Part shown: positions 21,707 through 46,219 of the stretch, one piece after another
How positions within the stretch are numbered: position 1 is the first letter of the stretch
Layout: every line of letters begins with the position of its first letter
Virus record (IMG/VR): IMGVR_UViG_3300011115_000879
Location: 1-64,000 of that record
DNA from: a virus
DNA length: 64,000 nt
Reading direction: 5' to 3' (one strand)
Notes under the pieces: generated by a model
Databases searched by the model: none
The model's input: only the letters and a program-made list of their open reading frames with translations
Told to the model about the DNA's origin: nothing
Made by a program: the position numbers and the translations under genes

Positions 21707-22024
21707 ATGACTAAAACTCGAAAAATGAGAAGAAAGATTCCTGTATTTAAGATAAATATGAAACCGGGTGCTAGTTATTCTCAAATAGCAGAAATACCTG
21801 AATTAAAGCAGGTAATAATGGAAGAAACCATATTTGCTATTGCTGACGGTATGAATAAAAATAAAAAAATCATATCTTTATTTGAAGTGGCAGAATCAAA
21901 TTACTATATTCAATTAGATAAAAATAATTGGAAACCAGCATTATCTACAGCTCTTGAGTATTATATAGAAAAAGAAGATTGGAAGAAATGTATTGAATGT
22001 CGAGATTTAATAAAAAAATTATAA
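21707..22024 (+). CDS. Hypothetical protein
   Basis: This 105-residue protein has a basic N-terminus (TKTRKMRRKIP) and a C-terminal ALEYYIEKEDWKKCIECRDLI helix pair. No domain is recognised. It is in a tight group with the next two genes. Confidence 0.65.
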   Translation: MTKTRKMRRKIPVFKINMKPGASYSQIAEIPELKQVIMEETIFAIADGMNKNKKIISLFEVAESNYYIQLDKNNWKPALSTALEYYIEKEDWKKCIECRDLIKKL

Positions 22025-24938: not shown

Positions 24939-25010
24939 AGTCAGGTGGCGTAAATGGAAACGCCCCACCATAGTAGGTGGGAGATGTAGGTTCGATTCCT
25001 ATCCTGACCG
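24939..25010 (+). tRNA. tRNA-like gene with irregular anticodon loop
   Basis: The acceptor AGTCAGG/CCTGACC pairs except for A-C at 1:72. The D arm is GCG/CGC and the T arm is GTAGG-TTCGATT-CCTAT. The anticodon stem CCACC/GGTGG closes a 6-nt loop, ATAGTA, or an 8-nt loop if the last pair opens. The anticodon is therefore ambiguous. The 1:72 mismatch recalls initiator tRNAs, which have C-A rather than A-C. Confidence 0.65.
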
Positions 25011-25104
25011 CGCAAAAAACTATTAGGTGAAGTTTCCTTACCACGACAAATTCGTCCACTGTGACTATATCGTATGGGTTTTTGATACCTACTTTAATTT
25101 AGAT

Positions 25105-36363: not shown

Positions 36364-36546
36364 ATGGCTATTCAAACGAAAGATCAAGCGCAAGGTAAAG
36401 TAGATAAGAAATTAGACAGAGTATTGAATAAGCCTAAAAAGATTGTTCCATTGATGGAACGTAATTTTAACGATTTAGCTACATTGGAAGAACAATTTGA
36501 GTGGTTAAAACGTAAGCAACGCCAAAAAGATAGGGAGGCAAAATAA
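36364..36546 (+). CDS. Hypothetical basic protein
   Basis: This 60-residue, Lys/Arg-rich protein has a C-terminal helix LKRKQRQKDREAK. Its last codons overlap the next promoter cassette. Confidence 0.65.
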   Translation: MAIQTKDQAQGKVDKKLDRVLNKPKKIVPLMERNFNDLATLEEQFEWLKRKQRQKDREAK

Positions 36547-36561
36547 AAATCGTACATTCAC
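36537..36561 (+). promoter_or_regulatory. GGCA/TACATTCAC promoter cassette
   Basis: GGCA with CGTACATTCAC is nearly identical over 40 nt to the copy at 36315, including the CTCGAACC leader. Confidence 0.7.
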
Positions 36562-36584
36562 CTCGAACCAAAAAATAATAAGTT

Positions 36585-37376
36585 ATGTCAAACGAATTAA
36601 ATTCAACCGCAGTAATGTCTAACAACAGTTATTCATTAGATCAAATCAAGTCAATAGCTCCATCAGTGTTTACTGTTGATAAAGCTGCTCATTTAACGGA
36701 TAAGTATATCCAAACTCCAACATCCCGTGTTGTAGAGGATTTAATGGCTTTAGGATGGCAAGTAACTAAAGCACAAGAAGTTAAAGCACGTAAAGGTAAA
36801 GGATTCCAAAAACATATGGTTGTGTTTCGCAACCCAGATATTATGATTAAGGGTAAAGGTGGTGATGATTCATTCCCACAAATTATATTAACTAATAGTC
36901 ATGATGGTAAAGCAGCATTTAATTTTAGGGTAGGTATTTTCAGATTAATCTGCAGTAACGGTTTAGTTATTAGTGATGCTGATTTTAATAATGTATCTAT
37001 TCGTCATATTAATTATACATTTGAGACATTACAAACTAAAATTGGTGAAGTAATTACTAAATTACCTGGTTTAGTTGCTAAAATTAATTTATTCAAATCA
37101 ACTCAATTAAGTGAGACAGCAATGGCTGAATTTGCTATTAAAGCCGCTTCATTACGTACTAAACAAAGTACAAATGTAGTAGAATTATTAAGAGCAGAAC
37201 GTGACTTAGATAGAGGTAATGATCTATGGACTGTATTTAATCGTGTTCAAGAGAAAATAATTAGCGGTGGGTTTGGTTATGGTAGGAAAAATCGTAAGGC
37301 AAGGTCAATTAAAAACTTTCAACAAGATATTAAGTTGAATGAAGAATTATTTGAATTAGCCGAGACTTATCTATAG
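36585..37376 (+). CDS. DUF932 family protein
   Basis: This 263-residue protein has the DUF932 (phage/plasmid-related) pattern. VVEDLMALGWQ is followed by the central NSHDGKAAFNFRVGIFRLIC with SNGLVI, and then by a helical C-terminal part ending in a basic segment GYGRKNRKARS. DUF932 proteins are common on phages and plasmids; their activity is unknown. A strong terminator follows 6 nt after the stop. Confidence 0.85.
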   Translation: MSNELNSTAVMSNNSYSLDQIKSIAPSVFTVDKAAHLTDKYIQTPTSRVVEDLMALGWQVTKAQEVKARKGKGFQKHMVVFRNPDIMIKGKGGDDSFPQIILTNSHDGKAAFNFRVGIFRLICSNGLVISDADFNNVSIRHINYTFETLQTKIGEVITKLPGLVAKINLFKSTQLSETAMAEFAIKAASLRTKQSTNVVELLRAERDLDRGNDLWTVFNRVQEKIISGGFGYGRKNRKARSIKNFQQDIKLNEELFELAETYL

Positions 37377-37382
37377 TAAAAT

Positions 37383-37408
37383 AAGGGGGATGGCAACGTC
37401 CCCCTTTT
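37383..37408 (+). terminator. Rho-independent terminator
   Basis: AAGGGGGA-TGGCAACG-TCCCCCTT forms an 8-bp stem followed by TT. It ends the DUF932 transcript. Confidence 0.8.
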
Positions 37409-37433
37409 ACATTTAATCAAACAAAAATAAGTT

Positions 37434-37976
37434 ATGAAAAAAGTATTAGTAATTCATCCAAACGACAGTAGTACCGATTTTTTAAAACCGATATACGCTA
37501 ATATACCTAACGCTACTGTTATTAGAGGTGGGATGACTAGAGCTGATGTGGATCAAGAAATTATCAAGCATGATCGTATTATAATGTTAGGACATGGTTC
37601 ACCAGGTGGTTTATTTTCTATAGGTGAATTTGAAGGTAGTTATGGATTTATTATCAGTCATGGTACAGCAGATTTACTAAGAGATAAAGAATGTATATTC
37701 ATTTGGTGTAATGCAGATAAATTTGTTAAGGAACATAACCTAAAAGGTTTATATAGCGGGATGTTTATTAGCGAAGTTGGTGAAGCGTTTTATTGTGAAA
37801 CACCAGCATCACAAGAAGTAGTAACTGAATCGAATGATTATTTTGCTAATGAATTAGGTAAAGTAAGTAATTTAGATTTAAACGAAATACATAATTACAT
37901 CAAAACCAATTACGGTATATTAGCTGAGAGTAATGATGTAGCAAATTACAATAACAATAGAATATATTTAGTATGA
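37434..37976 (+). CDS. Possible clan CD (caspase-like fold) protein
   Basis: The 180-residue protein has two parallel-strand motifs characteristic of clan CD cysteine peptidases. A hydrophobic strand ends in His-Gly (RIIMLGHGSPGG, H54-G55), and 38 residues later a hydrophobic strand ends in Cys (CIFIWCNAD, C92). The N-terminal KKVLVIHPND strand and Rossmann-like order fit a small caspase/gingipain-type or CHAT-type domain. I do not recognise a named family, so activity is inference. It is followed by an overlapping membrane-protein gene, possibly a partner. Confidence 0.6.
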   Translation: MKKVLVIHPNDSSTDFLKPIYANIPNATVIRGGMTRADVDQEIIKHDRIIMLGHGSPGGLFSIGEFEGSYGFIISHGTADLLRDKECIFIWCNADKFVKEHNLKGLYSGMFISEVGEAFYCETPASQEVVTESNDYFANELGKVSNLDLNEIHNYIKTNYGILAESNDVANYNNNRIYLV

Positions 37977-38233
37977 TAATAACATTAATAGTTGTTTTAT
38001 TTGTAATAATTCTAGGAATGGGACGTCATATTAAGAAGATAACAGATCAATTAGAATTATTAGATAGAGAACAACATGATCAAAATAAAGAAATAGCAAT
38101 ATTAATGAAAAATCATTTAAGACATCAAGGAATGTTATTACAACATAGTGAAGTATTAATGTATTTAGCTGAACGAGATGAAACATTAAAGAAATATACT
38201 ATAAAATATTCAGGTATAGTAGGAGAAGCATAA
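37973..38233 (+). CDS. Membrane-anchored helical protein
   Basis: This 86-residue protein has an N-terminal transmembrane helix (residues 1-16, IITLIVVLFVIILGMG) and a long charged helix, likely a coiled coil. It overlaps the preceding gene (ATGA), so the two are co-translated. Confidence 0.65.
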   Translation: MIITLIVVLFVIILGMGRHIKKITDQLELLDREQHDQNKEIAILMKNHLRHQGMLLQHSEVLMYLAERDETLKKYTIKYSGIVGEA

Positions 38234-38240
38234 TTTATCC

Positions 38241-38249
38241 ATATTTATA
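38241..38249 (+). promoter_or_regulatory. ATATTTATA late-type motif
   Basis: ATATTTATA lies 16-24 nt upstream of the next small gene. Confidence 0.4.
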
Positions 38250-38264
38250 AAAAACAAAAATCAT

Positions 38265-38435
38265 ATGGCATCAGCACAAACAGAAATGAAAGTAATTAGC
38301 GTATTATTAGAGGAAGCAATGGATAATGGATTAGAAGTAGAAGTTGTATATGCCGCCTTAAAGGCAATGAGAGAAGATGATGCTATTACACCAGCACAAG
38401 CGTTTCAGGTTGGTATGGATGAATGGGTTAAGTAA
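38265..38435 (+). CDS. Small conserved phage protein
   Basis: This 56-residue acidic helical protein contains VLLEEAMDNGLEVEVVYAAL and ends QVGMDEWVK. The pattern (two helices, acidic, ending EW.K) is common in T4-like phage small proteins. It is followed by a strong hairpin. Confidence 0.65.
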   Translation: MASAQTEMKVISVLLEEAMDNGLEVEVVYAALKAMREDDAITPAQAFQVGMDEWVK

Positions 38436-38450
38436 TCACATAAGCACTCA

Positions 38451-38498
38451 ACATAAAAGATAAAGTGGCTAGGCAAAATTGCCTAGCTATCTTTATGT
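38451..38498 (+). terminator. Long hairpin terminator
   Basis: ACATAAA...TTTATGT outer arms enclose a perfect GCTAGGCAA/TTGCCTAGC stem (loop AA). The right arm contains CTTTAT in place of a U-run. It probably terminates the upstream transcript and may also work on the opposite strand. Confidence 0.7.
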
Positions 38499-38518
38499 TA
38501 ACCAAAAAATAAAAAATT

Positions 38519-38710
38519 ATGAGTGTAAGATTAGTGCAAAAAGAAACAACGTACGAAGTAAATTTTAATGGTGATGAATATCAAGTCACAGTAATGGAAG
38601 ATAATATTAGTGTTGGATATACAGTTTATGATGTATTTGATGAGAATGGTGAGTTAGTAGAAGGTGATTTAGAAAGTGCAGTGATTAGTTATTTAGAAGA
38701 AAATAGTTAG
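38519..38710 (+). CDS. Hypothetical acidic protein
   Basis: This 63-residue beta-rich acidic protein (MSVRLVQKETTYEVNFNGDE) is preceded by the GTTAACCAAAAAAT leader typical of cassette-driven genes. The function is unknown. Confidence 0.65.
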   Translation: MSVRLVQKETTYEVNFNGDEYQVTVMEDNISVGYTVYDVFDENGELVEGDLESAVISYLEENS

Positions 38711-38713
38711 GAC

Positions 38714-38738
38714 GGCAAAATAAGAATCGTACATTCAC
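38714..38738 (+). promoter_or_regulatory. GGCA/TACATTCAC promoter cassette
   Basis: GGCA with CGTACATTCAC and leader GTTAACC drives the ATPase gene. Confidence 0.7.
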
Positions 38739-38760
38739 GTTAACCAAAAAATAATAAGTT

Positions 38761-39591
38761 ATGAACCAAGAAAGTAAAAAAAGAGGTCGTCCGTCAAAAG
38801 TACAGAACGTTACCTATGTCCCGTCATTAATTGACTTTTCAAACATTACAAAGTTAAATGAACTTAACATTGATAAAAAGATGTTAGAAGTAATGAAAAG
38901 TGGTTTACCTATAGATGAGTTGTTATCTGAAGAAGGTGGTATACCATGTGCTTCAAATTACATGATGATCGGTGATCCAGGAGTAGGTAAAACTACAGTA
39001 TTATTAGATTTATTATCAGCAGTCCAAAACAAAGGTCGTAAATGTTTATTCATAAGCGGCGAAATGGGACGTAAACAAATGTTCAAATATACAGAACGAT
39101 TCAAGCAGTTCGGTATTATACAAACATTATTCATGGCTGATTATATGTCATATAACACTAAAGACACAATTGAACAAGTATTAAATATGGGATGGGATTG
39201 TGTGTTGATTGATAGTGCAGCTGAAATAATCGATGGTGTACGTGATGATAATGGATGGGATAGAAAAACAGCTGAGGCATGGTTCGTTGATATATGCATC
39301 AAGCATAATAAGGGTGAAAATGAAGGTACTAAATTTACATCATTCCTTGCCATCCAACAAGTAACTAAAGCAGGTGAATTTGTAGGTAGTAATAAATTAA
39401 AACATCTATTCGATGCTATGGGTGAAATGAGACGTCAATCCGAGAAAGAAGGCGGAGATACTTATATTACATTTAGTAAGAATAGAAACGGAAATGCAGG
39501 TATTAAATTCAATTATCAATTAAACAACGATTCAATATATTATGGTAAAGTGGTTAAAGAAGAAAATGAAGATGATAGTGAGGCAGAATAA
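38761..39591 (+). CDS. RadA/DnaB-like RecA-fold ATPase with N-terminal AT-hook
   Basis: The 276-residue protein has Walker A GDPGVGKTT (71-79), SGEMGRKQM (99-107, matching the SGEES element of RadA/DnaB), and Walker B DCVLIDSA (146-153). A QQVTKAGEFVGSNKLKHLFD segment resembles the RadA/KNRFG-like region, followed by SKNRNGN, the KNR[F/N]G motif itself. An N-terminal KKRGRPSK is an AT-hook. It probably acts on DNA in recombination or replication as a branch-migration or helicase-loader-type ATPase. Confidence 0.82.
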   Translation: MNQESKKRGRPSKVQNVTYVPSLIDFSNITKLNELNIDKKMLEVMKSGLPIDELLSEEGGIPCASNYMMIGDPGVGKTTVLLDLLSAVQNKGRKCLFISGEMGRKQMFKYTERFKQFGIIQTLFMADYMSYNTKDTIEQVLNMGWDCVLIDSAAEIIDGVRDDNGWDRKTAEAWFVDICIKHNKGENEGTKFTSFLAIQQVTKAGEFVGSNKLKHLFDAMGEMRRQSEKEGGDTYITFSKNRNGNAGIKFNYQLNNDSIYYGKVVKEENEDDSEAE

Positions 39592-39606
39592 TAATCGTAC
39601 ATTCAC
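39582..39606 (+). promoter_or_regulatory. GGCA/TACATTCAC promoter cassette
   Basis: GGCA with CGTACATTCAC overlaps the end of the ATPase gene and is followed by GTTAACCAAAAAAT before the next start. Confidence 0.7.
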
Positions 39607-39628
39607 GTTAACCAAAAAATATAAAAAC

Positions 39629-40450
39629 ATGAAAAAAGAATTCAAAGTAGGCGACAAAGTAGTAATTAGTAAAAAATCTAGATTCTATGGAGATCATTAT
39701 TCAAATCCAACAGATGTGGACGGCACAATCACTAAGATTAGAGATGATTATGAAGGTCCTTTTAATGTTTTAGATATTAAAGTAGAATGGGATAATGGAA
39801 TGAAAAATTCATACAGTGAAATTGATTTAGAATTGGCAAAACAACAGTCATACATTCACGATAACCAAAACGATAAAAATATGAATAAAGCATTTAAAGT
39901 AGGTGATAAAGTAATGATTGATAGTAGTTCCGAATACTATAGTGATAACGATACTTCAAATCCAAGAGATGTGGAAGGCACAATTACTGAAATTGAAGGT
40001 GAGGATTGGCTTGGTGGATTGGGTATTATTGTTAAATGGGATAACGGAAAAATAAATGGCTACAATAAAGTAGATTTAAAATTGGCAAAGAAAGAATCGT
40101 ATATTCATGATGAAGAAAAAATTAACCAACCATTAAAACCTAAAGTTATGATTAAAGCAATTACAATTACAGATTTAGATCAAATTAAAGCGTTATGCGA
40201 AGCTATTCCTGGTATTAAATCTCAAGTACAGGATATGTACCCTGAGTTATTTGAAGTACATAAAGCAGGTAATAGATATGTTGATGTGTATGGTACTGAA
40301 TTTATATTAGCAACTGAACAAGGTGCAGTAGCATTAGTTGATTTAGAAACAGGTAAAATAGGTAAAACAGTATATGTTGATGACATTAATGATGTTACAG
40401 AAGATGAAATGGAGTTAGTATATAATGACAAAGAGTATACTTTAGCTTAG
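39629..40450 (+). CDS. Fused tandem SH3/KOW-like protein with translated promoter linkers
   Basis: The start at 39629 (MKKEFKVGDKVVISK) follows a promoter cassette; an upstream in-frame ATG at 39542 lies inside the ATPase gene. The 273-residue product has two paralogous domains of about 80 residues (FKVGDKVVI...GTITKI...VEWDNG and FKVGDKVMI...GTITEI...VKWDNG), then a third, unrelated domain from about residue 174. The two linkers, ELAKQQSYIHDNQND and KLAKKESYIHDEEKI, are translations of GGCA...ATTCA promoter cassettes at 39835 and 40084. Each is followed by an in-frame ATG (39881 and 40148), so the region looks like three genes whose stops were lost. Separate products from internal starts are possible. 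Confidence 0.8.
   Translation: MKKEFKVGDKVVISKKSRFYGDHYSNPTDVDGTITKIRDDYEGPFNVLDIKVEWDNGMKNSYSEIDLELAKQQSYIHDNQNDKNMNKAFKVGDKVMIDSSSEYYSDNDTSNPRDVEGTITEIEGEDWLGGLGIIVKWDNGKINGYNKVDLKLAKKESYIHDEEKINQPLKPKVMIKAITITDLDQIKALCEAIPGIKSQVQDMYPELFEVHKAGNRYVDVYGTEFILATEQGAVALVDLETGKIGKTVYVDDINDVTEDEMELVYNDKEYTLA
39835..39859 (+). promoter_or_regulatory. Promoter cassette inside a coding region
   Basis: GGCA with CATACATTCAC and leader ATAACCAAAA precedes an in-frame ATG at 39881, yet is translated without a stop. Confidence 0.6.
40084..40108 (+). promoter_or_regulatory. Promoter cassette inside a coding region
   Basis: GGCA with CGTATATTCA lies 40 nt before an in-frame ATG at 40148. It is translated as part of the fused gene. 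Confidence 0.55.
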
Positions 40451-40463
40451 ATATATTATTGGT

Positions 40464-40491
40464 TAGGTGGGTGCAGAAATGCGTTCGCCTA
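40464..40491 (+). terminator. GAAA-loop hairpin terminator
   Basis: TAGGTG...CGCCTA with an inner GU-rich stem and GAAA loop is followed by TCTTTAT. It separates two cassette-driven units. Confidence 0.6.
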
Positions 40492-40502
40492 TCTTTATGC
40501 TT

Positions 40503-40527
40503 GGCACAACTAAAATCGTATATTCAC
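40503..40527 (+). promoter_or_regulatory. GGCA/TATATTCAC promoter cassette
   Basis: TTGGCA with CGTATATTCAC ends 3 nt before the start codon, leaving almost no leader. Confidence 0.65.
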
Positions 40528-40530
40528 GTT

Positions 40531-40980
40531 ATGGAATTAGAAAAACGAATAGAGCAATACACACCTGTAAAATATAATCCTTATTATTGGTGGCGTCGTT
40601 TCAAACAACGAGAAACAAAACATCCTTATACAATTCTACAAACCAGAATTGAACATGGTGATTTCGAAGTAAGTGATTACCATTGGTGGATGATGTGGGA
40701 AGATAAATTAGAGCAAGACGCTATATCTAAAGAACGTAACGTAGATAAACAACATGAGTTGAGAGGATTATATGGTGAACGTAAACGACGATTAGCAACT
40801 GACTTTGAAAAAGACGAAGCAAAGATTAAATCAGAAATGTATAAAGCATTTAGAATAGAGTTTAGATTAAACGAAACAGAACTAGAAGATAAAATGATTA
40901 AATTCGACGGAACATTAAGTGAATTTTATTATGAATTAAAAAGTAAGCAACAAAATAAGATAGTATCACTCACGCGCTAG
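40531..40980 (+). CDS. Hypothetical basic/aromatic protein
   Basis: The start at 40531 (MELEKRIEQYTPVKY) follows the promoter. The 149-residue protein has a Trp-rich part (YYWWRRF, YHWWMMWEDKLEQ) and a charged helical second half. No family is recognised. Confidence 0.65.
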   Translation: MELEKRIEQYTPVKYNPYYWWRRFKQRETKHPYTILQTRIEHGDFEVSDYHWWMMWEDKLEQDAISKERNVDKQHELRGLYGERKRRLATDFEKDEAKIKSEMYKAFRIEFRLNETELEDKMIKFDGTLSEFYYELKSKQQNKIVSLTR

Positions 40981-41005
40981 GCAAGACTACGTATATACAT
41001 TCATT
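40980..41005 (+). promoter_or_regulatory. GGCA/TACATTCA promoter cassette
   Basis: GGCA begins at the last base of the previous stop codon, followed by TATACATTCA. Confidence 0.6.
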
Positions 41006-41017
41006 CAAAATTAAGTT

Positions 41018-41098
41018 ATGATAATAGCATTAGTAGTATTATTGATCGTTGTAATTGTCAAGTATATTATATTTGAAATTAAAAATCCGGGAATTTAG
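41018..41098 (+). CDS. 26-residue membrane peptide
   Basis: The product is almost entirely one hydrophobic helix (MIIALVVLLIVVIVKYIIFE). It has its own promoter and the TTAAGTT leader, and its stop overlaps the next cassette, which argues that it is a real gene. Confidence 0.5.
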   Translation: MIIALVVLLIVVIVKYIIFEIKNPGI

Positions 41099-41122
41099 GC
41101 AAAGTAAATTCATTACATTTAA
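41098..41122 (+). promoter_or_regulatory. GGCA/TACATTTAA promoter cassette
   Basis: GGCA with ATTACATTTAA is followed by the TCAACCAAAACG leader. Confidence 0.62.
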
Positions 41123-41142
41123 TCAACCAAAACGATAAAAGT

Positions 41143-41352
41143 ATGTATTTAATCAAATTAACACAAGTATCTAAGGCGTTTGTTATTAAAGATACTAATA
41201 CTCGAAGAGAGTATACAGTAACATGGCGTAACTATACACCTAATCCATGGTTTATTGAAGATGAATATGAAGTAGAAATAGATCAGGAAACGGCATTAGG
41301 TGAAGATTTAATAGTGTTAGTACAAGACCAATTTGATGATTGGGCAAAGTAA
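41143..41352 (+). CDS. Hypothetical protein
   Basis: This 69-residue beta-rich protein ends in an acidic helix (LIVLVQDQFDDWAK). Its end overlaps the next promoter cassette. The function is unknown. Confidence 0.65.
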   Translation: MYLIKLTQVSKAFVIKDTNTRREYTVTWRNYTPNPWFIEDEYEVEIDQETALGEDLIVLVQDQFDDWAK

Positions 41353-41367
41353 TAGTCATATATTCAC
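41343..41367 (+). promoter_or_regulatory. GGCA/TATATTCAC promoter cassette
   Basis: GGCA with CATATATTCAC overlaps the stop of the previous gene. Confidence 0.62.
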
Positions 41368-41389
41368 ATTAACGAAATAAAATAATAGT

Positions 41390-41635
41390 ATGGGTAAGAA
41401 GAAGATGAATAATATAATAACTCAGGACGAAACGAATGATTTACTTCAGCGGGTGAGTGACCTGGAATATATGACAACAACATTGATTAGGGATAATATT
41501 GAGTTGGCTCAATTAAGTAGTGCGATGAAATGCTTGGTTGGCATGTATGAATGTGATATTATTGAGCTGCAAGATGCGCGTTTTTTTGCGCGTTTAAAGC
41601 GCTTTTTTGCGCCGCTTTTTGGTGGTATTAAGTAG
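41390..41635 (+). CDS. Hypothetical helical protein
   Basis: This 81-residue protein has a coiled-coil-like middle and a C-terminus FARLKRFFAPLFGGIK encoded by a G/C/T-rich segment containing GCGC repeats (41577-41618) unlike the surrounding codon use. The function is unknown. Confidence 0.6.
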   Translation: MGKKKMNNIITQDETNDLLQRVSDLEYMTTTLIRDNIELAQLSSAMKCLVGMYECDIIELQDARFFARLKRFFAPLFGGIK

Positions 41636-42010
41636 TGTTTTTGTATCGCAAGGGTGACGAACAATTGTTATGTGTGTATAATTGGATTTTGTGTTAAGGT
41701 ATGTTGTACGTTGTGTATGTGGAATGTTCGTTATGTGGGTGATGTGGCGTGTTGTGGCAGGTACATTTTTAGCCTTGCCTCTCCAAACACTTTTTTAAAG
41801 CAAAAGATATATACGATTTTTTTAGCACAATTTTGTACGTACATTCACTGAGGTAATAAGTTCTTATATTTATCGACGTACAACAGCATTATTTTGTTAT
41901 AAGGAACCGGCCTCGCCACAAGTTGAACGTAACGCTAATAATACTCAGTACACCACATATTTTTTTTGCAAAACTGTTACATAGGTAACGGCTTTCCTAC
42001 TGCTTGAATT
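41636..42010 (+). other. 375-nt gap without a convincing gene
   Basis: The first part is G/T-rich with one short Cys-rich frame that I do not accept. A promoter-like cassette lies at 41824-41848 and an ATATTTAT motif at 41866-41873. The remainder up to the next promoter has no start-codon-linked frame. It could hold a small RNA transcribed from the 41824 promoter. Confidence 0.5.
41824..41848 (+). promoter_or_regulatory. GCACA/TACATTCAC promoter cassette without adjacent gene
   Basis: GCACA with CGTACATTCAC has good spacing but is followed by no open frame for about 200 nt. Confidence 0.5.
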
Positions 42011-42035
42011 GGCAAGATTTTGTTACTACATTCAC
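42011..42035 (+). promoter_or_regulatory. GGCA/TACATTCAC promoter cassette
   Basis: TTGGCA with CTACATTCAC is followed by the CGAACCAAAAATTAA leader before the AT-hook gene. Confidence 0.68.
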
Positions 42036-42057
42036 CACGAACCAAAAATTAAGTGTT

Positions 42058-42702
42058 ATGAGAATTATTGATAAAGATTTTATTGTGGGTGGACATAAAG
42101 TAGGTGTTTACCAAGCGTACGTAGATATCGACCCTAATTTTGTACCAATGGAGCCGGGTGTACGTGTTTTACCAGCAGCTTTTTTTTCACAGAAGGATTT
42201 TTTTACACTCAAACGCCGCTACTTACCCGGTGATAAACCAACGTTCCCACAAGGTGGCTATGAGGTGTTCGGATCGGGAGGTGAGGTTCGCAGCTACGAT
42301 CTAGACGCCGTCATTTTGTATCCAGAAACACGCGCTCAGAAGAAGATCATCGACGCAATGGCTCCAGCTGACCCGGATGCTCCAACTCGTGGGCGTAAGG
42401 CTTCAAGCACACCGAAAGAGATAAAGATAACAAGCGGAAGACGTGGGCGCCCATCACTCAGTCAAGAAGATAAAGCCGCAAAGGAAGAAGCCGCTGCGGT
42501 TAAGGCTTCAAAGTCGGGAGGTAAGCGAGGAAGGCCGGCGCGTGAAGGTGGTCCGAAACCAATGAAGGAAGCAACAGGCGGTAAACGTGGACGCCCTAGA
42601 ATGACCGAGGCAGTTATCGCCCTTAAAGTGGCGGATAAGGCGCTTCGAGCGAGCAAGTCCGGCGGTAAGCGAGGTAGACCAGCAAGTACAAAACGTAAGT
42701 AA
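42058..42702 (+). CDS. AT-hook DNA-binding protein
   Basis: The start at 42058 (MRIIDKDFIVGG) follows the promoter and leader. Residues 1-115 are a compact domain of unknown type (VLPAAFFSQKDFFTLKRRY). The last 95 residues are a low-complexity Lys/Ala/Gly tail with four AT-hooks: GRRGRPS, GKRGRPA, GKRGRPR and GKRGRPA. AT-hooks bind the minor groove of AT-rich DNA, so this 214-residue protein may compact or regulate the AT-rich phage or host DNA. A perfect terminator follows. Confidence 0.82.
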   Translation: MRIIDKDFIVGGHKVGVYQAYVDIDPNFVPMEPGVRVLPAAFFSQKDFFTLKRRYLPGDKPTFPQGGYEVFGSGGEVRSYDLDAVILYPETRAQKKIIDAMAPADPDAPTRGRKASSTPKEIKITSGRRGRPSLSQEDKAAKEEAAAVKASKSGGKRGRPAREGGPKPMKEATGGKRGRPRMTEAVIALKVADKALRASKSGGKRGRPASTKRK

Positions 42703-42707
42703 CAATT

Positions 42708-42731
42708 AGCGCTCGTAAGAGCGCTTTTTTT
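42708..42731 (+). terminator. Rho-independent terminator
   Basis: AGCGCTC-GTAA-GAGCGCT forms a 7-bp stem with a following run of seven T. Confidence 0.9.
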
Positions 42732-42743
42732 ATGCTCGTGTTT

Positions 42744-42768
42744 GTCACAACTACTGTTGTACATTCAT
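42744..42768 (+). promoter_or_regulatory. GTCA/TACATTCA promoter cassette
   Basis: GTCA with TTGTACATTCA is followed by the TTAACCAAAAATTAA leader. Confidence 0.68.
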
Positions 42769-42788
42769 GTTAACCAAAAATTAAGGTT

Positions 42789-42980
42789 ATGATTTACAAA
42801 TTATGCATTTCGAAAAACAGAGTACAGTACCTAAAACAACAACTAGGTGATAATATTTTTGTCACTGATGAGGTTAGAGAAGATAACCTAGCTAGTGTGG
42901 AAGTAACCATCAACGATGACATGGACGCACTGAGTTTGTTCCATGCTGGAGTAATGGTTGGAATGAACGGCTCAGTATAA
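42789..42980 (+). CDS. Hypothetical acidic protein
   Basis: This 63-residue protein (YKLCISKNRVQYLKQQLG) has a C-terminal VTINDDMDALSLFHAGVM segment. The function is unknown. It is a single-gene cassette unit. Confidence 0.65.
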   Translation: MIYKLCISKNRVQYLKQQLGDNIFVTDEVREDNLASVEVTINDDMDALSLFHAGVMVGMNGSV

Positions 42981-42994
42981 ATAAATTAGGGCGG

Positions 42995-43019
42995 GGCAAA
43001 ATAAATGTTGTACATTCAC
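42995..43019 (+). promoter_or_regulatory. GGCA/TACATTCAC promoter cassette
   Basis: GGCA with TTGTACATTCAC precedes the second AT-hook gene. Confidence 0.68.
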
Positions 43020-43047
43020 ATCACACAAATAATTAAAAATTAAGGTT

Positions 43048-43371
43048 ATGAGCAAGAAAAAAACAGTAGTAGCACCAGTAGAAACAATCGTAGTTAACAG
43101 TGTAAAAAGAGGCCGCCCAACGCTAGAAGGATCAGCGCGCCAAGCTAAATTAGCAGCACGTGCGGAGCGAGTTGCAGCGGGTGGATCAGTTGAGCGTGGG
43201 CGCCCGAGTAATCCAACGAGTGCTCGTCAAACTCGTCTAGCGGCTAGAGCAGCTAGGCTCGCGAGCGGAGTTGAGGTCAGAGCCGGCCGTCCAAAAGGTA
43301 CAGGTAAAACGGTGGAGGTAGAGGTGAGTGTGGAGCCGGTAGTTGAGGTGGGTGTTGGGGTTGAAGCCTAA
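43048..43371 (+). CDS. Repeat protein with AT-hook-like motifs
   Basis: This 107-residue protein has tandem repeats of about 32 residues, each with an AT-hook (KRGRPTLEGSARQAKLAAR, ERGRPSNPTSARQTRLAAR, RAGRPKGTGK) followed by an Ala/Arg helix. The C-terminus is Val/Glu-rich (VEVEVSVEPVVEVGVGV). It is probably a minor-groove DNA-binding protein. Codons are G-rich compared with other genes in the window. Confidence 0.8.
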   Translation: MSKKKTVVAPVETIVVNSVKRGRPTLEGSARQAKLAARAERVAAGGSVERGRPSNPTSARQTRLAARAARLASGVEVRAGRPKGTGKTVEVEVSVEPVVEVGVGVEA

Positions 43372-43377
43372 CACCCG

Positions 43378-43402
43378 GGCACAGCCCGCTTCGTACATTC
43401 AC
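43378..43402 (+). promoter_or_regulatory. GGCA/TACATTCAC promoter cassette
   Basis: GGGCA with CGTACATTCAC and leader ATCGAACC follows directly after the stop. Confidence 0.66.
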
Positions 43403-43424
43403 ATCGAACCAAAAATTAAAAATT

Positions 43425-43580
43425 ATGTACAGTTTAGATTGTTCTTTTTACACAGCGGAATTTACATGTATCGGTGATTTAGTAACTCACGTTATGCTTT
43501 TAGGTATGGATCCGAATTATGAGATCACTAGAAACGGAAAAGGTATTGGTGAGCAAGCAGCTGATTATCTTCAGTTTTAG
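43425..43580 (+). CDS. Hypothetical 51-residue protein
   Basis: The product MYSLDCSFYTAEFTCIGDL...ITRNGKGIGEQAADYL is preceded by a full cassette and AAAAATT leader. The function is unknown. Confidence 0.6.
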   Translation: MYSLDCSFYTAEFTCIGDLVTHVMLLGMDPNYEITRNGKGIGEQAADYLQF

Positions 43581-43604
43581 GCACAGTTTTTTTTGTACAT
43601 TCAC
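43580..43604 (+). promoter_or_regulatory. GGCA/TACATTCAC promoter cassette
   Basis: GGCA, sharing its first base with the previous TAG, is followed by TTGTACATTCAC and a GTTAACC leader. Confidence 0.68.
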
Positions 43605-43627
43605 GTTAACCAAAAAATATAAAGTAT

Positions 43628-43966
43628 ATGAAAGTATCAATTGAGCAAGCAGTAGTAAAAGTAAATGAGTGTATGTCTTCTGTTTTTACCAAGAATGATG
43701 TACTGAATTTGTTACAGAGTATTGAAATGAAAAAGGAAAATCTTGTGACTAAGGAGATGTTAGTGACTTTTGTTACTGACTATGTTGAAACACAAGTTGA
43801 GCGGTTAGATGCTGGGGATATTTTAGATCTTAGTACAGCTGAGTTTGATTTGAATGGTTGTGAGTTAAGTTTAGAAAGTGTTGATATTGACACAAGAGAT
43901 TTCACTAGAAACATTTTAGGAGAGATTGACGAAGCAGTTGATACTTTCTTGAATTACGATCTATAG
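43628..43966 (+). CDS. Hypothetical acidic helical protein
   Basis: This 112-residue protein has VNECMSSVFTKNDVLNLLQ and a strongly acidic second half. It resembles small phage proteins with a helix pair but has no named domain. Confidence 0.66.
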   Translation: MKVSIEQAVVKVNECMSSVFTKNDVLNLLQSIEMKKENLVTKEMLVTFVTDYVETQVERLDAGDILDLSTAEFDLNGCELSLESVDIDTRDFTRNILGEIDEAVDTFLNYDL

Positions 43967-43976
43967 ATAACTTAGA

Positions 43977-43999
43977 GCGGGGCTCGTCAGAGTCCCGTT
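43977..43999 (+). terminator. Hairpin terminator overlapping a promoter
   Basis: GCGGGGCTC-GTCA-GAGTCCCGT forms a 9-bp stem followed by TCTTATATTT. The GTCA loop is at promoter-box distance from TATATTTA, so terminator and next promoter overlap. Confidence 0.65.
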
Positions 44000-44011
44000 C
44001 TTATATTTAAT
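43986..44011 (+). promoter_or_regulatory. GTCA/TATATTTAA promoter cassette
   Basis: GTCA in the hairpin loop with TTATATTTAA downstream is followed by TCAAACCAAAAACAATTAG. Confidence 0.55.
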
Positions 44012-44031
44012 CAAACCAAAAACAATTAGTT

Positions 44032-44223
44032 ATGAATGAGTACGCTTACAACCAGTTATTATCTTTGTTACAACAAGCAGCTGCGATAGCAGAGGAGAAC
44101 AAGGACAATGTTACCAATTTTGATCTCGAGGATCTGGGGCTGTCGCTAGAAGGGATCATCCAGGAGATCGAGGACCTAGGAACATTTGTGGGTGAGGGTG
44201 ATGATGAGGAGTACGATAACTAG
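44032..44223 (+). CDS. Hypothetical acidic protein
   Basis: This 63-residue helical protein has a very acidic C-terminus (EDLGTFVGEGDDEEYDN). Its codons are unusually GC-rich (CTC, CTG, GAG) for this genome. The function is unknown. Confidence 0.65.
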   Translation: MNEYAYNQLLSLLQQAAAIAEENKDNVTNFDLEDLGLSLEGIIQEIEDLGTFVGEGDDEEYDN

Positions 44224-44232
44224 GGGGATAAA

Positions 44233-44304
44233 GCCGCGTTGGTCAAGAGGTTAAGACGCCTCCCTTTCACGGAGGAATCACGGGTTCGAGTCCCGTACGT
44301 GGTA
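44233..44304 (+). tRNA. tRNA-Glu (TTC)
   Basis: The acceptor GCCGCGT/ACGTGGT (two GU pairs), anticodon stem CCTCC/GGAGG with loop CTTTCAC, and T arm ACGGG-TTCGAGT-CCCGT form a full cloverleaf. It lies apart from the main tRNA locus, alone among small genes. Confidence 0.94.
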
Positions 44305-44316
44305 CAAGTTTTGTTT

Positions 44317-44341
44317 GGCACAATCAATTTTATACATTCAC
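44317..44341 (+). promoter_or_regulatory. GGCA/TACATTCAC promoter cassette
   Basis: TTGGCA with TATACATTCAC is followed by ATTAACCAAAAATTAAG. Confidence 0.68.
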
Positions 44342-44361
44342 ATTAACCAAAAATTAAGACA

Positions 44362-44574
44362 ATGGAAAAATTATCAAATGCAATCGAAATGTTTTTGTTC
44401 GACATGATCCCATCATTTTTGTATGGTGAGACAATTAGTGGAGTACCGATGAGTCAGGTGTCCAGGGGCTTCAACACCACTCACCCGCCAGTCCAGCTAA
44501 GTGAATTTGAATGGATACAGGAGTTTAGAGTGGGTTCGCTCCACAGAGTTGAGCAACGGGTTTTTTTGGGATAA
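44362..44574 (+). CDS. Hypothetical protein
   Basis: This 70-residue protein (MEKLSNAIEMFLFDMIPSF) follows a full cassette and leader and ends just before the next one. The function is unknown. Confidence 0.6.
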   Translation: MEKLSNAIEMFLFDMIPSFLYGETISGVPMSQVSRGFNTTHPPVQLSEFEWIQEFRVGSLHRVEQRVFLG

Positions 44575-44599
44575 GGCAACGCTTTTTTTGTACATTTAT
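44575..44599 (+). promoter_or_regulatory. GGCA/TACATTTA promoter cassette
   Basis: GGCA with TTGTACATTTA is followed by TTACGAACCAAAAAC. Confidence 0.66.
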
Positions 44600-44621
44600 T
44601 ACGAACCAAAAACATTAAATT

Positions 44622-45050
44622 ATGTCTACAAGATCATTAATCGGAAAACAAAACGCAGACAAAACAGTAACGTTTATTTATTGCCACCATGATGGCTACC
44701 CTAGTGGGGTGGGTGATACGCTCATCGAGTCTTACTCCACACCAGAGCAGGTGGATGGTTTACTCGCACTGGGGGATCTGAGTGTACTAGGGAGTGAGCT
44801 GGGTGAGCAACAGGATTTTAATAAACACACCCGTGATTGGTGTTTAGCGTACGGAAGGGATAGGGGTGAGACGGGTACTGAGGCTCAAACAATCGATCAA
44901 GAGATGTACGTGCGTGAGAATTTGAGGGGTGAGGAGTATAAGTATATTTATTCACTAAGCAAGAACTGGGTTTGTTATGGAAATGATGATGATGAGGACG
45001 ATGAGGAGTTCACCATCAAGTATCCAACAACAGAATCCAGTACAACATAA
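44622..45050 (+). CDS. Conserved phage hypothetical protein (STRSLIG family)
   Basis: The protein begins STRSLIGKQNADKTVTFIYCHHDGYPSGVG, a pattern I recognise from many phage proteins of unknown role, and ends in an Asp/Glu-rich tail. It is 142 residues long. A good terminator follows. Confidence 0.8.
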   Translation: MSTRSLIGKQNADKTVTFIYCHHDGYPSGVGDTLIESYSTPEQVDGLLALGDLSVLGSELGEQQDFNKHTRDWCLAYGRDRGETGTEAQTIDQEMYVRENLRGEEYKYIYSLSKNWVCYGNDDDEDDEEFTIKYPTTESSTT

Positions 45051-45078
45051 GTTCATACTTTAATTTTAATGGTTAACC

Positions 45079-45103
45079 GGGCCGGAGTTTCTACTCCAGG
45101 CCC
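45079..45103 (+). terminator. Rho-independent terminator
   Basis: GGGCCGGAGT-TTCT-ACTCCAGGCCC forms a 10-bp stem with one mismatch, followed by TCTCTTT. Confidence 0.8.
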
Positions 45104-45120
45104 TCTCTTTATGTTTGTAA

Positions 45121-45145
45121 GGCAGAATTAATTATGTACATTCAC
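45121..45145 (+). promoter_or_regulatory. GGCA/TACATTCAC promoter cassette
   Basis: GGCA with ATGTACATTCAC is followed by GTTAACCAAAAATTAA. Confidence 0.68.
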
Positions 45146-45165
45146 GTTAACCAAAAATTAAAAAT

Positions 45166-45390
45166 ATGATTGTTAAAATTTATCATTACGATTGTTCTTC
45201 AAATGAATTATTAAATGTAGATGTTATTGAGTGTAAAACACAAGAAGAATGTGAGTTAGAGATTATAAAACATCACTACCAAATTGATTATGACAATTGT
45301 AATACGGATTTAAGTGAAGAAGAGTATATTGAGAAATATAAAGTTAGTGACTTACAGTTTTATGAGAACTATGATTATGAAATTTGTTAG
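45166..45390 (+). CDS. Hypothetical acidic protein
   Basis: This 74-residue protein is rich in Tyr, Asp and Glu (YHYDCSSNELLNVDV). The function is unknown. Its stop overlaps the next cassette. Confidence 0.65.
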   Translation: MIVKIYHYDCSSNELLNVDVIECKTQEECELEIIKHHYQIDYDNCNTDLSEEEYIEKYKVSDLQFYENYDYEIC

Positions 45391-45414
45391 TCAGAATTAG
45401 TTATGTATATTCAC
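45390..45414 (+). promoter_or_regulatory. GTCA/TATATTCAC promoter cassette
   Basis: GTCA with ATGTATATTCAC is followed by GTTAACCAAAAATTATTAG. Confidence 0.66.
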
Positions 45415-45435
45415 GTTAACCAAAAATTATTAGTT

Positions 45436-45630
45436 ATGAAAAAGTATTTAGTTGTTTCGTCTGAAAATGGTAATGATTTTTACATTGTAAATGATTTAAA
45501 AGAATTGATTGAAGAAATGTATGAGTTTGAATTAGTACAAAACGGAGAAACGTTTGAAAGTGTGAGTGAAAAATTATATAGATTCTATCAAGTGTTTGAA
45601 ATTGATGGTGAAATTAAAGTATTAAATTAA
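45436..45630 (+). CDS. Hypothetical acidic protein
   Basis: The start at 45436 (MKKYLVVSSENGND) follows the leader; a longer frame would include the promoter. It has 64 residues and an unknown function. Confidence 0.64.
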   Translation: MKKYLVVSSENGNDFYIVNDLKELIEEMYEFELVQNGETFESVSEKLYRFYQVFEIDGEIKVLN

Positions 45631-45635
45631 ACGTG

Positions 45636-45655
45636 GGTAGTCAGAAATGACTACC
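45636..45655 (+). terminator. GAAA-loop hairpin overlapping the next promoter
   Basis: GGTAGTCA-GAAA-TGACTACC is a perfect 8-bp stem. Its GTCA is at the correct distance from the downstream TATATTTATT to serve as the next promoter's box. Confidence 0.7.
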
Positions 45656-45665
45656 TATATTTATT
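45640..45665 (+). promoter_or_regulatory. GTCA/TATATTTATT promoter cassette inside hairpin
   Basis: GTCA of the hairpin left arm with CTATATTTATT is followed by CAAACCAAAAATTAAACC. Confidence 0.55.
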
Positions 45666-45683
45666 CAAACCAAAAATTAAACC

Positions 45684-45845
45684 ATGAAGCAAGAAAAAGA
45701 TTACGCGTTCCAAGTAGTAGTATTCCTAGTATTATTAGTGATAGCAACAACCAGCTGTAGCCGCTATAGAGCAGTAGGATCAGATGGTAGGTGTATGTTT
45801 AAAAAACAAACCAATTATCAAATGACTAGGATAATTCGATTATAA
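45684..45845 (+). CDS. Tiny lipoprotein
   Basis: This 53-residue product has a signal helix (FQVVVFLVLLVIATTSC) ending in a lipobox with Cys at residue 27, then a basic tail (SRYRAVGSDGRC). It would be lipid-anchored. With the lipoprotein at 23374 it makes two small exported lipoproteins in the window. The function is unknown. Confidence 0.62.
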   Translation: MKQEKDYAFQVVVFLVLLVIATTSCSRYRAVGSDGRCMFKKQTNYQMTRIIRL

Positions 45846-45857
45846 AGCCAGTTGGAC

Positions 45858-45882
45858 GTCAAAACTAGCAGCGTACATTCAC
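45858..45882 (+). promoter_or_regulatory. GTCA/TACATTCAC promoter cassette
   Basis: GTCA with GCGTACATTCAC is followed by ATCGAACCAAAAATTAA. Confidence 0.66.
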
Positions 45883-45903
45883 ATCGAACCAAAAATTAAT
45901 GAT

Positions 45904-46074
45904 ATGGCAAACATGAGCTACTGCAGATTCGAAAACACATACAACGACTTAAAGGACTGCCTTGAACACATTAATGATGAATGTGAAAATGAACGTGATG
46001 AGCGTTACAGACTCAGAATGATTGAGCTATTAGCACACGTACAAGATTCAATCGATTCAGATTATATCGATTAA
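45904..46074 (+). CDS. Conserved phage protein (MANMSYCRFENT family)
   Basis: This 56-residue protein starts MANMSYCRFENTYNDLKDC, a recognisable small family of phage proteins with unknown role. The second half is a charged helix. Confidence 0.75.
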   Translation: MANMSYCRFENTYNDLKDCLEHINDECENERDERYRLRMIELLAHVQDSIDSDYID

Positions 46075-46087
46075 ATAATCAGGGCTA

Positions 46088-46112
46088 GGCAAAACCAGCA
46101 GCGTACATTCAC
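46088..46112 (+). promoter_or_regulatory. GGCA/TACATTCAC promoter cassette
   Basis: GGCA with GCGTACATTCAC is followed by GTTAACCAAATAATTAG. Confidence 0.66.
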
Positions 46113-46132
46113 GTTAACCAAATAATTAGAAC

Positions 46133-46219
46133 ATGAACGAATTAAAGATTAAAATTACAGGCGTTACAATGATGTTAGCCTCAACAGCGTATTTAATAGT
46201 TTATATGCTCAATAATTAA
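46133..46219 (+). CDS. 28-residue membrane peptide
   Basis: The sequence MNELKIKITGVTMMLASTAY continues as one hydrophobic helix. A full cassette and leader support expression. Confidence 0.48.
   Translation: MNELKIKITGVTMMLASTAYLIVYMLNN

Follow-up and report, generated by a model that had tools for sequence, protein, structure and literature searches.

How did a single open reading frame come to hold, within its coding sequence, two copies of a promoter-like cassette that elsewhere in the same phage genome stands in front of genes? The window analysed, a 64-kb stretch of viral DNA, is the first part of a 159,567-bp IMG/VR virus record, and the frame in question (Table 1) had been described in an earlier note as 273 residues containing two paralogous domains and a third; frame and joint peptides alike were found exactly as quoted there. 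The explanation favoured here, with a probability of about 0.8, is a natural fusion of three former cassette-gene units by stop loss across promoter-like cassettes. Three neighbouring small genes would thus have become one because the stop codons carried by the cassettes mutated away.

Table 1. Coordinates of the features at the fusion locus (window positions)
Feature	Position	Strand	Evidence or remark
Upstream gene, RecA/KaiC-like ATPase with AT-hook-like N-terminus	38761..39591	+	Gene after the ATPase differs among relatives
Intergenic cassette before the fused gene, GGCA-N12-TACATTCA	39582..39605	+	49.0 bits; positions 8-10 are TAA (39589-39591), the stop of the upstream ATPase gene
A-rich leader ahead of the start codon, CGTTAACCAAAAAATATAAAAAC	39606..39628	+	Leader type as in relatives
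ORF read as a fusion, 273 aa, D1-linker 1-D2-linker 2-D3	39629..40450	+	In-frame codon signal across all three domains and the two linkers
D1, SH3-like (MIB/HERC2-like) barrel, residues 1-71, ends ...DLELAK	39629..39841	+	phrog_11307 E=4.8e-19; phrog_9469 E=1.6e-17
Internal cassette 1, GGCAAAACAACAGTCATACATTCA, translated; leader to 39880	39835..39858	+	39.1 bits, relatives-trained matrix
Lost stop(s) of D1, CAA CAG; TAA, often tandem (TAA TAG), in other cassettes	39842..39847	+	Sequence comparison
Linker 1, QQSYIHDNQNDKN	39842..39880	+	Leader AACCAAAACGATAAAAATATG
D2, paralogous SH3-like barrel, residues 85-154, ends ...DLKLAK	39881..40090	+	phrog_11307 E=2.4e-20, profile 1-71 from the D2 Met
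Internal cassette 2, GGCAAAGAAAGAATCGTATATTCA, translated	40084..40107	+	24.8 bits
Lost stop of D2, AAA; TAA or TAG in other cassettes	40091..40093	+	Cassette comparison
Linker 2, KESYIHDEEKINQPLKPKV; longer leader, ends AAAGTTATG	40091..40147	+	Leader rearranged
D3, orphan domain, 100 aa	40148..40447	+	Strong in-frame coding signal
Next intergenic cassette, before the gene at 40531	40503..40526	+	37.9 bits

The cassette consists of GGCA-N12-TAYATTCA followed by an A-rich leader, typically CGTTAACCAAAAAATAATAAGTT, and then ATG, and it is found in front of many genes. All 20 occurrences of the strict motif in the 159.6-kb genome are on the plus strand, at 21.9-46.1 kb, and uncultured relatives also carry the cassette, with a strong one-strand bias in each record. 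With a matrix built solely from 97 cassettes of relatives, 35 plus-strand sites above 12 bits were recovered and none on the minus strand, where no site was seen even above 8 bits; the mean chance expectation in Markov-1 simulations was 0.05. The two internal cassettes score inside the intergenic range (39.1 and 24.8 bits, against 9.7-50 among the sites listed), and each runs through a translated leader into an in-frame ATG, at 39881 and 40148, which bears out the earlier description of the joints as translated cassettes. Another in-ORF site, at 21889, was rejected as a third joint because the next ATG is 99 bases off and out of frame.

From its position before genes, its TAnnTT core and its A-rich leader, we infer that the cassette is promoter-like, albeit with a core, TAYATTCA, that is not the same as the known Bacteroidetes consensus. 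Promoters of the Bacteroidetes, including Flavobacterium, have TTTG at -33 and TAnnTTTG at -7 (TAHHTTTG in Flavobacterium), and the phylum lacks Shine-Dalgarno sites (PMC6847099). The TAnnTT core and the A-rich, Shine-Dalgarno-free leader downstream are common to both, whereas in the cassette TAYATTCA stands in place of TAnnTTTG, and 12 bases upstream of it there is a strict GGCA. In Flavobacterium phage immuto (L123, 22050-37300), genes start after a hairpin with a T-run followed by CGTATATTTA, an arrangement that looks like a combined terminator-promoter akin to the GGCA cassette. Hairpins were found in 13 of 118 cassettes under a loose criterion, strong in few of them and at neither joint, and because of this scarcity a mainly terminator-hairpin role for GGCA was discarded. 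In a minority of cassettes (L036:3585, L052:4497, L054:1896), GGCA does form loop and stem of a perfect G+C-rich hairpin, an arrangement suggestive of a terminator merged with a promoter.

The cassette also terminates its neighbour. When ORFs of at least 35 codons that run into a cassette were counted (n=45), the upstream stop lay at cassette positions 8-10 in 34, all in one phase, making this arrangement usual, not universal. These 34 ORFs belong to 17 families that show no detectable similarity to one another, yet each ends in A-K, A-E or A-Q and then the stop; unrelated proteins share this C-terminus because the preceding gene takes its final codons and its stop from the GGCA box. The shared ending was noted at window positions 36364-46200 and in relatives L010-L060. 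This makes for a compact layout, in which a promoter-like cassette also completes the preceding gene with its final residues and stop. Tandem stops occupy the stop site in 11 of the 34 cassettes (e.g. TAA TAG; compare 41350-41355), and at four of the 34 the loss of one stop would be enough to fuse the neighbouring genes. Partial losses are visible in relatives: the canonical cassette stop is gone at L035:707, where the gene ends at a stop 3 nt later, and at G003:141850, where it ends 6 nt later, with L011:10072 as a third, weaker case. In-frame fusions of two recognisable units were confined to the two joints described here among 163 cassettes in 12 records. Other apparent cassette fusions in relatives were rejected for want of a real upstream gene. 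Recoding of stop codons was rejected as well: no suppressor tRNA was found, and TAA and TAG terminate genes throughout.

Both joints lie in the phase of the 34 cassette-borne stops, with the stop triplet changed from T to C (CAA, 39842) and from T to A (AAA, 40091). Linker 1 has CAA CAG TCA TAC ATT CA, against TAA TAG TCA TAT ATT CA in the cassette at 41343, and the leader of linker 1 differs by one base from that of the gene at 41143. Since comparable cassettes carry tandem stops, two substitutions may have been required for linker 1, against one for linker 2. The order of events would then be as follows. Many early-region genes of this phage group are headed by a promoter-like cassette, the first ten bases of which double as the end of the preceding gene and give it its last two residues and stop (G GCA AAA TAA). 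Once the stop triplets at both joints had turned to sense, ribosomes would read on across promoter and leader and into the following gene without a change of frame, and the product would be D1-linker-D2-linker-D3 with short, flexible linkers. The earlier proposal that stop loss created a multidomain protein is thus upheld by the common phase of the 34 stops, the CAA and AAA triplets, domain profiles that begin at each methionine and the partial losses in relatives.

Codon choice at the joints bears the same mark. Given the residues L-A...I, the use of TTG, GCA and ATT at both joints has a probability of 1.2e-4 under genome codon usage; TTG is a rare codon, and among 170 Leu-Ala dipeptides counted in long ORFs just two have GGCA in their codons. 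The DNA motif is therefore derived from cassettes and has not decayed since, although codon choice does not separate recent fusion from ongoing promoter selection. The joints differ from one another at wobble positions (AAA/AAG, TCA/TCG, TAC/TAT, CAC/CAT), and such differences also fit selection on the protein sequence SYIHD, which counts against the favoured explanation; wobble sites vary between intergenic cassettes too, however, and so these changes decide for neither a coding nor a regulatory reading.

D1 and D2 share 53-54% of their residues and 70% of their DNA over the aligned domain. Each matches phrog_11307 and phrog_9469 as a whole domain, from its own methionine to about LAK, and on these profiles the D2 methionine is the native start of the family. 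A D2 model built from an eight-sequence alignment (pLDDT 80.5) has its last strand at residues 66-68 and a cassette-derived tail at pLDDT 43-51; the barrel is accordingly predicted to end at the joint and the linker to be disordered or flexible. A full-length model from the single sequence was uninformative (pLDDT 35). The earlier note's label of KOW gave way here, as no KOW family match was found in Pfam and both repeats are SH3-like barrels nearest to MIB/HERC2 domains. MIB/HERC2 (CPH) domains came first in a Foldseek search with the D2 model, at modest values (best E 3.4e-3, TM about 0.5), alongside small phage proteins, some named DUF4314, while the Pfam score for MIB/HERC2 (PF06701), 20.4 bits, is under the 33.5 cut-off and the likeness is one of fold only. 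D1 and D2 are duplicated barrels, probably with a peptide- or protein-binding role. D3 has no relative in any library searched, IMG/VR included.

The two joints could instead go back to one event, if a single stop loss gave domain-linker-D3 and a tandem duplication of domain plus linker followed. The paralogy of D1 and D2 is in keeping with this order, as is the presence of xxSYIHD in both linkers, with GAT where many cassettes have GTT. The linkers nevertheless diverge where the stop would be (CAA CAG in linker 1, AAA GAA in linker 2) and at variable cassette positions, and their leaders are of unequal length, all of which fits two separate cassettes; linker 1 is also nearer to the leader of gene 41143; a single event is doubtful on balance. 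Far less probable is the removal of stop codons by a sequencing or assembly artefact or by mixed strains. The sequence is a metagenome assembly whose overlapping ends reveal strain variation, but substitutions would be needed at both joints, where both downstream ATGs are in frame, and coding signal and frame continue through the linkers. It is extremely improbable that this is an ordinary multidomain protein whose linkers came to resemble cassettes by chance or residue convergence: a remote homologue does have the ending DLKLAK, yet motif frequency, strand bias, exact phase and codon choice all speak against coincidence.

A different division concerns what the internal cassettes do after fusion by stop loss. 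The odds are about even that they are vestigial, with full-length protein as the only product and the elements persisting through recent fusion or through conservation of SYIHD at the protein level. Coding alone would preserve much of the motif, given that GGCA falls on Leu-Ala codons and TAYATTCA translates as YIH, and the leader in linker 2 is rearranged. Both cassettes are nevertheless complete in motif, exact in spacing and within the intergenic range of scores; rare TTG stands at both joints; and the leader of linker 1 is almost identical to that of the separate gene at 41143. Tentatively, and at somewhat less than even odds, transcripts for D2-D3 and for D3 may still begin at the internal cassettes. 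The fuller version, in which the joints are dual-purpose, with putative active promoters in coding DNA that also encodes linkers and nested products D1-D2-D3, D2-D3 and D3, is possible rather than probable. If the internal promoters are active, the locus would lend itself, as a simple system, to the study of DNA in a double role, coding and regulatory.

Searches of IMG/VR with the whole protein and an alignment-based search returned no relatives, and domain profiles had no match in 28 related records; none of these searches found a close relative with D1, D2 and D3 as separate genes, and the direction of fusion is consequently drawn from the cassette family, not from orthologues. Separate genes were encountered only among remote homologues: D1/D2-type domains are encoded by tandem, unfused genes in Acinetobacter phage Ab15, Proteus phage Pm5461 and contig L122. 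A search of the genome collection gave one match, a remote tandem array on a contig that seemingly also has phage structural genes. On L122 (4995-6043), three separate FKVGDKV-type genes lie in tandem; the contig is binned as Candidatus Wolfebacteria, its neighbouring genes resemble phage structural genes, and it is probably a misbinned phage contig. A remote homologue in phage UAVern contains DLKLAKAKAP, and LAK could therefore be in part a feature of the protein, which counts against the favoured explanation.

Stop-loss gene fusions and modular promoter cassettes of phages are already known; unusual here is a clear case with visible intermediates. Stop-codon loss is reported to yield de novo C-termini and gene fusion (Andreatta 2015, PMC4494051), and there, as here, non-coding sequence was made coding by a lost stop, but in the present gene a regulatory cassette was recruited, twice, and in frame into the next gene. 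As described in PMC4503421, T4-type phages carry mobile regulatory cassettes, the promoter early stem-loops or PeSLs (Arbiol 2010, Comeau 2014). On that account, the two systems share repeated regulatory cassettes between small genes and a gene content that varies among relatives beside a conserved gene, whereas the GGCA cassette has another promoter-like sequence, mostly lacks a stem-loop and carries the stop of the upstream gene, with two copies translated here. Phage SH3-like proteins (phrog_11307, phrog_9469, DUF4314-named) match D1 and D2 from Met to LAK and have the MIB/HERC2-like fold in common with them, but elsewhere they are separate genes, often tandem, or attached to unrelated proteins, while here two copies and D3 are joined through cassette-derived linkers. 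Promoter cassettes that carry the neighbour's stop would place domain fusion one or two substitutions away in these phages, and the locus is a readable case of multidomain protein origin, in which few substitutions make regulatory DNA a linker and partial stages survive in relatives.

The ends of the record overlap by 908 bp at 98.5% identity (G000:C1 1-908 against the last 908 bases), which makes a complete or circularly permuted genome of ~158.7 kb probable, and the 1.5% of differences indicate strain variation in the sample. Its GroEL gene is closest to that of Flavobacterium phage immuto (58%), and a host in the Flavobacteriia is therefore likely, judging by nearest relatives. The genes 5' of the fused ORF (a DUF932 protein, several small proteins and the ATPase) are conserved among relatives, while the gene directly 3' of the ATPase often differs from one relative to another, which would place the fusion at a site of frequent gene exchange. 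Elsewhere in the window, a tRNA-like gene at 24939-25011 lies in a tRNA cluster and received an undetermined, two-base anticodon call from ARAGORN. AT-hook-like repeats (KRGRP) occur in proteins at 42058-42702 and 43048-43371, the ATPase starts with one (38761-38800), and the AT-hook-like protein stretch is locally G+C-rich, at 43% against roughly 30% for the genome.
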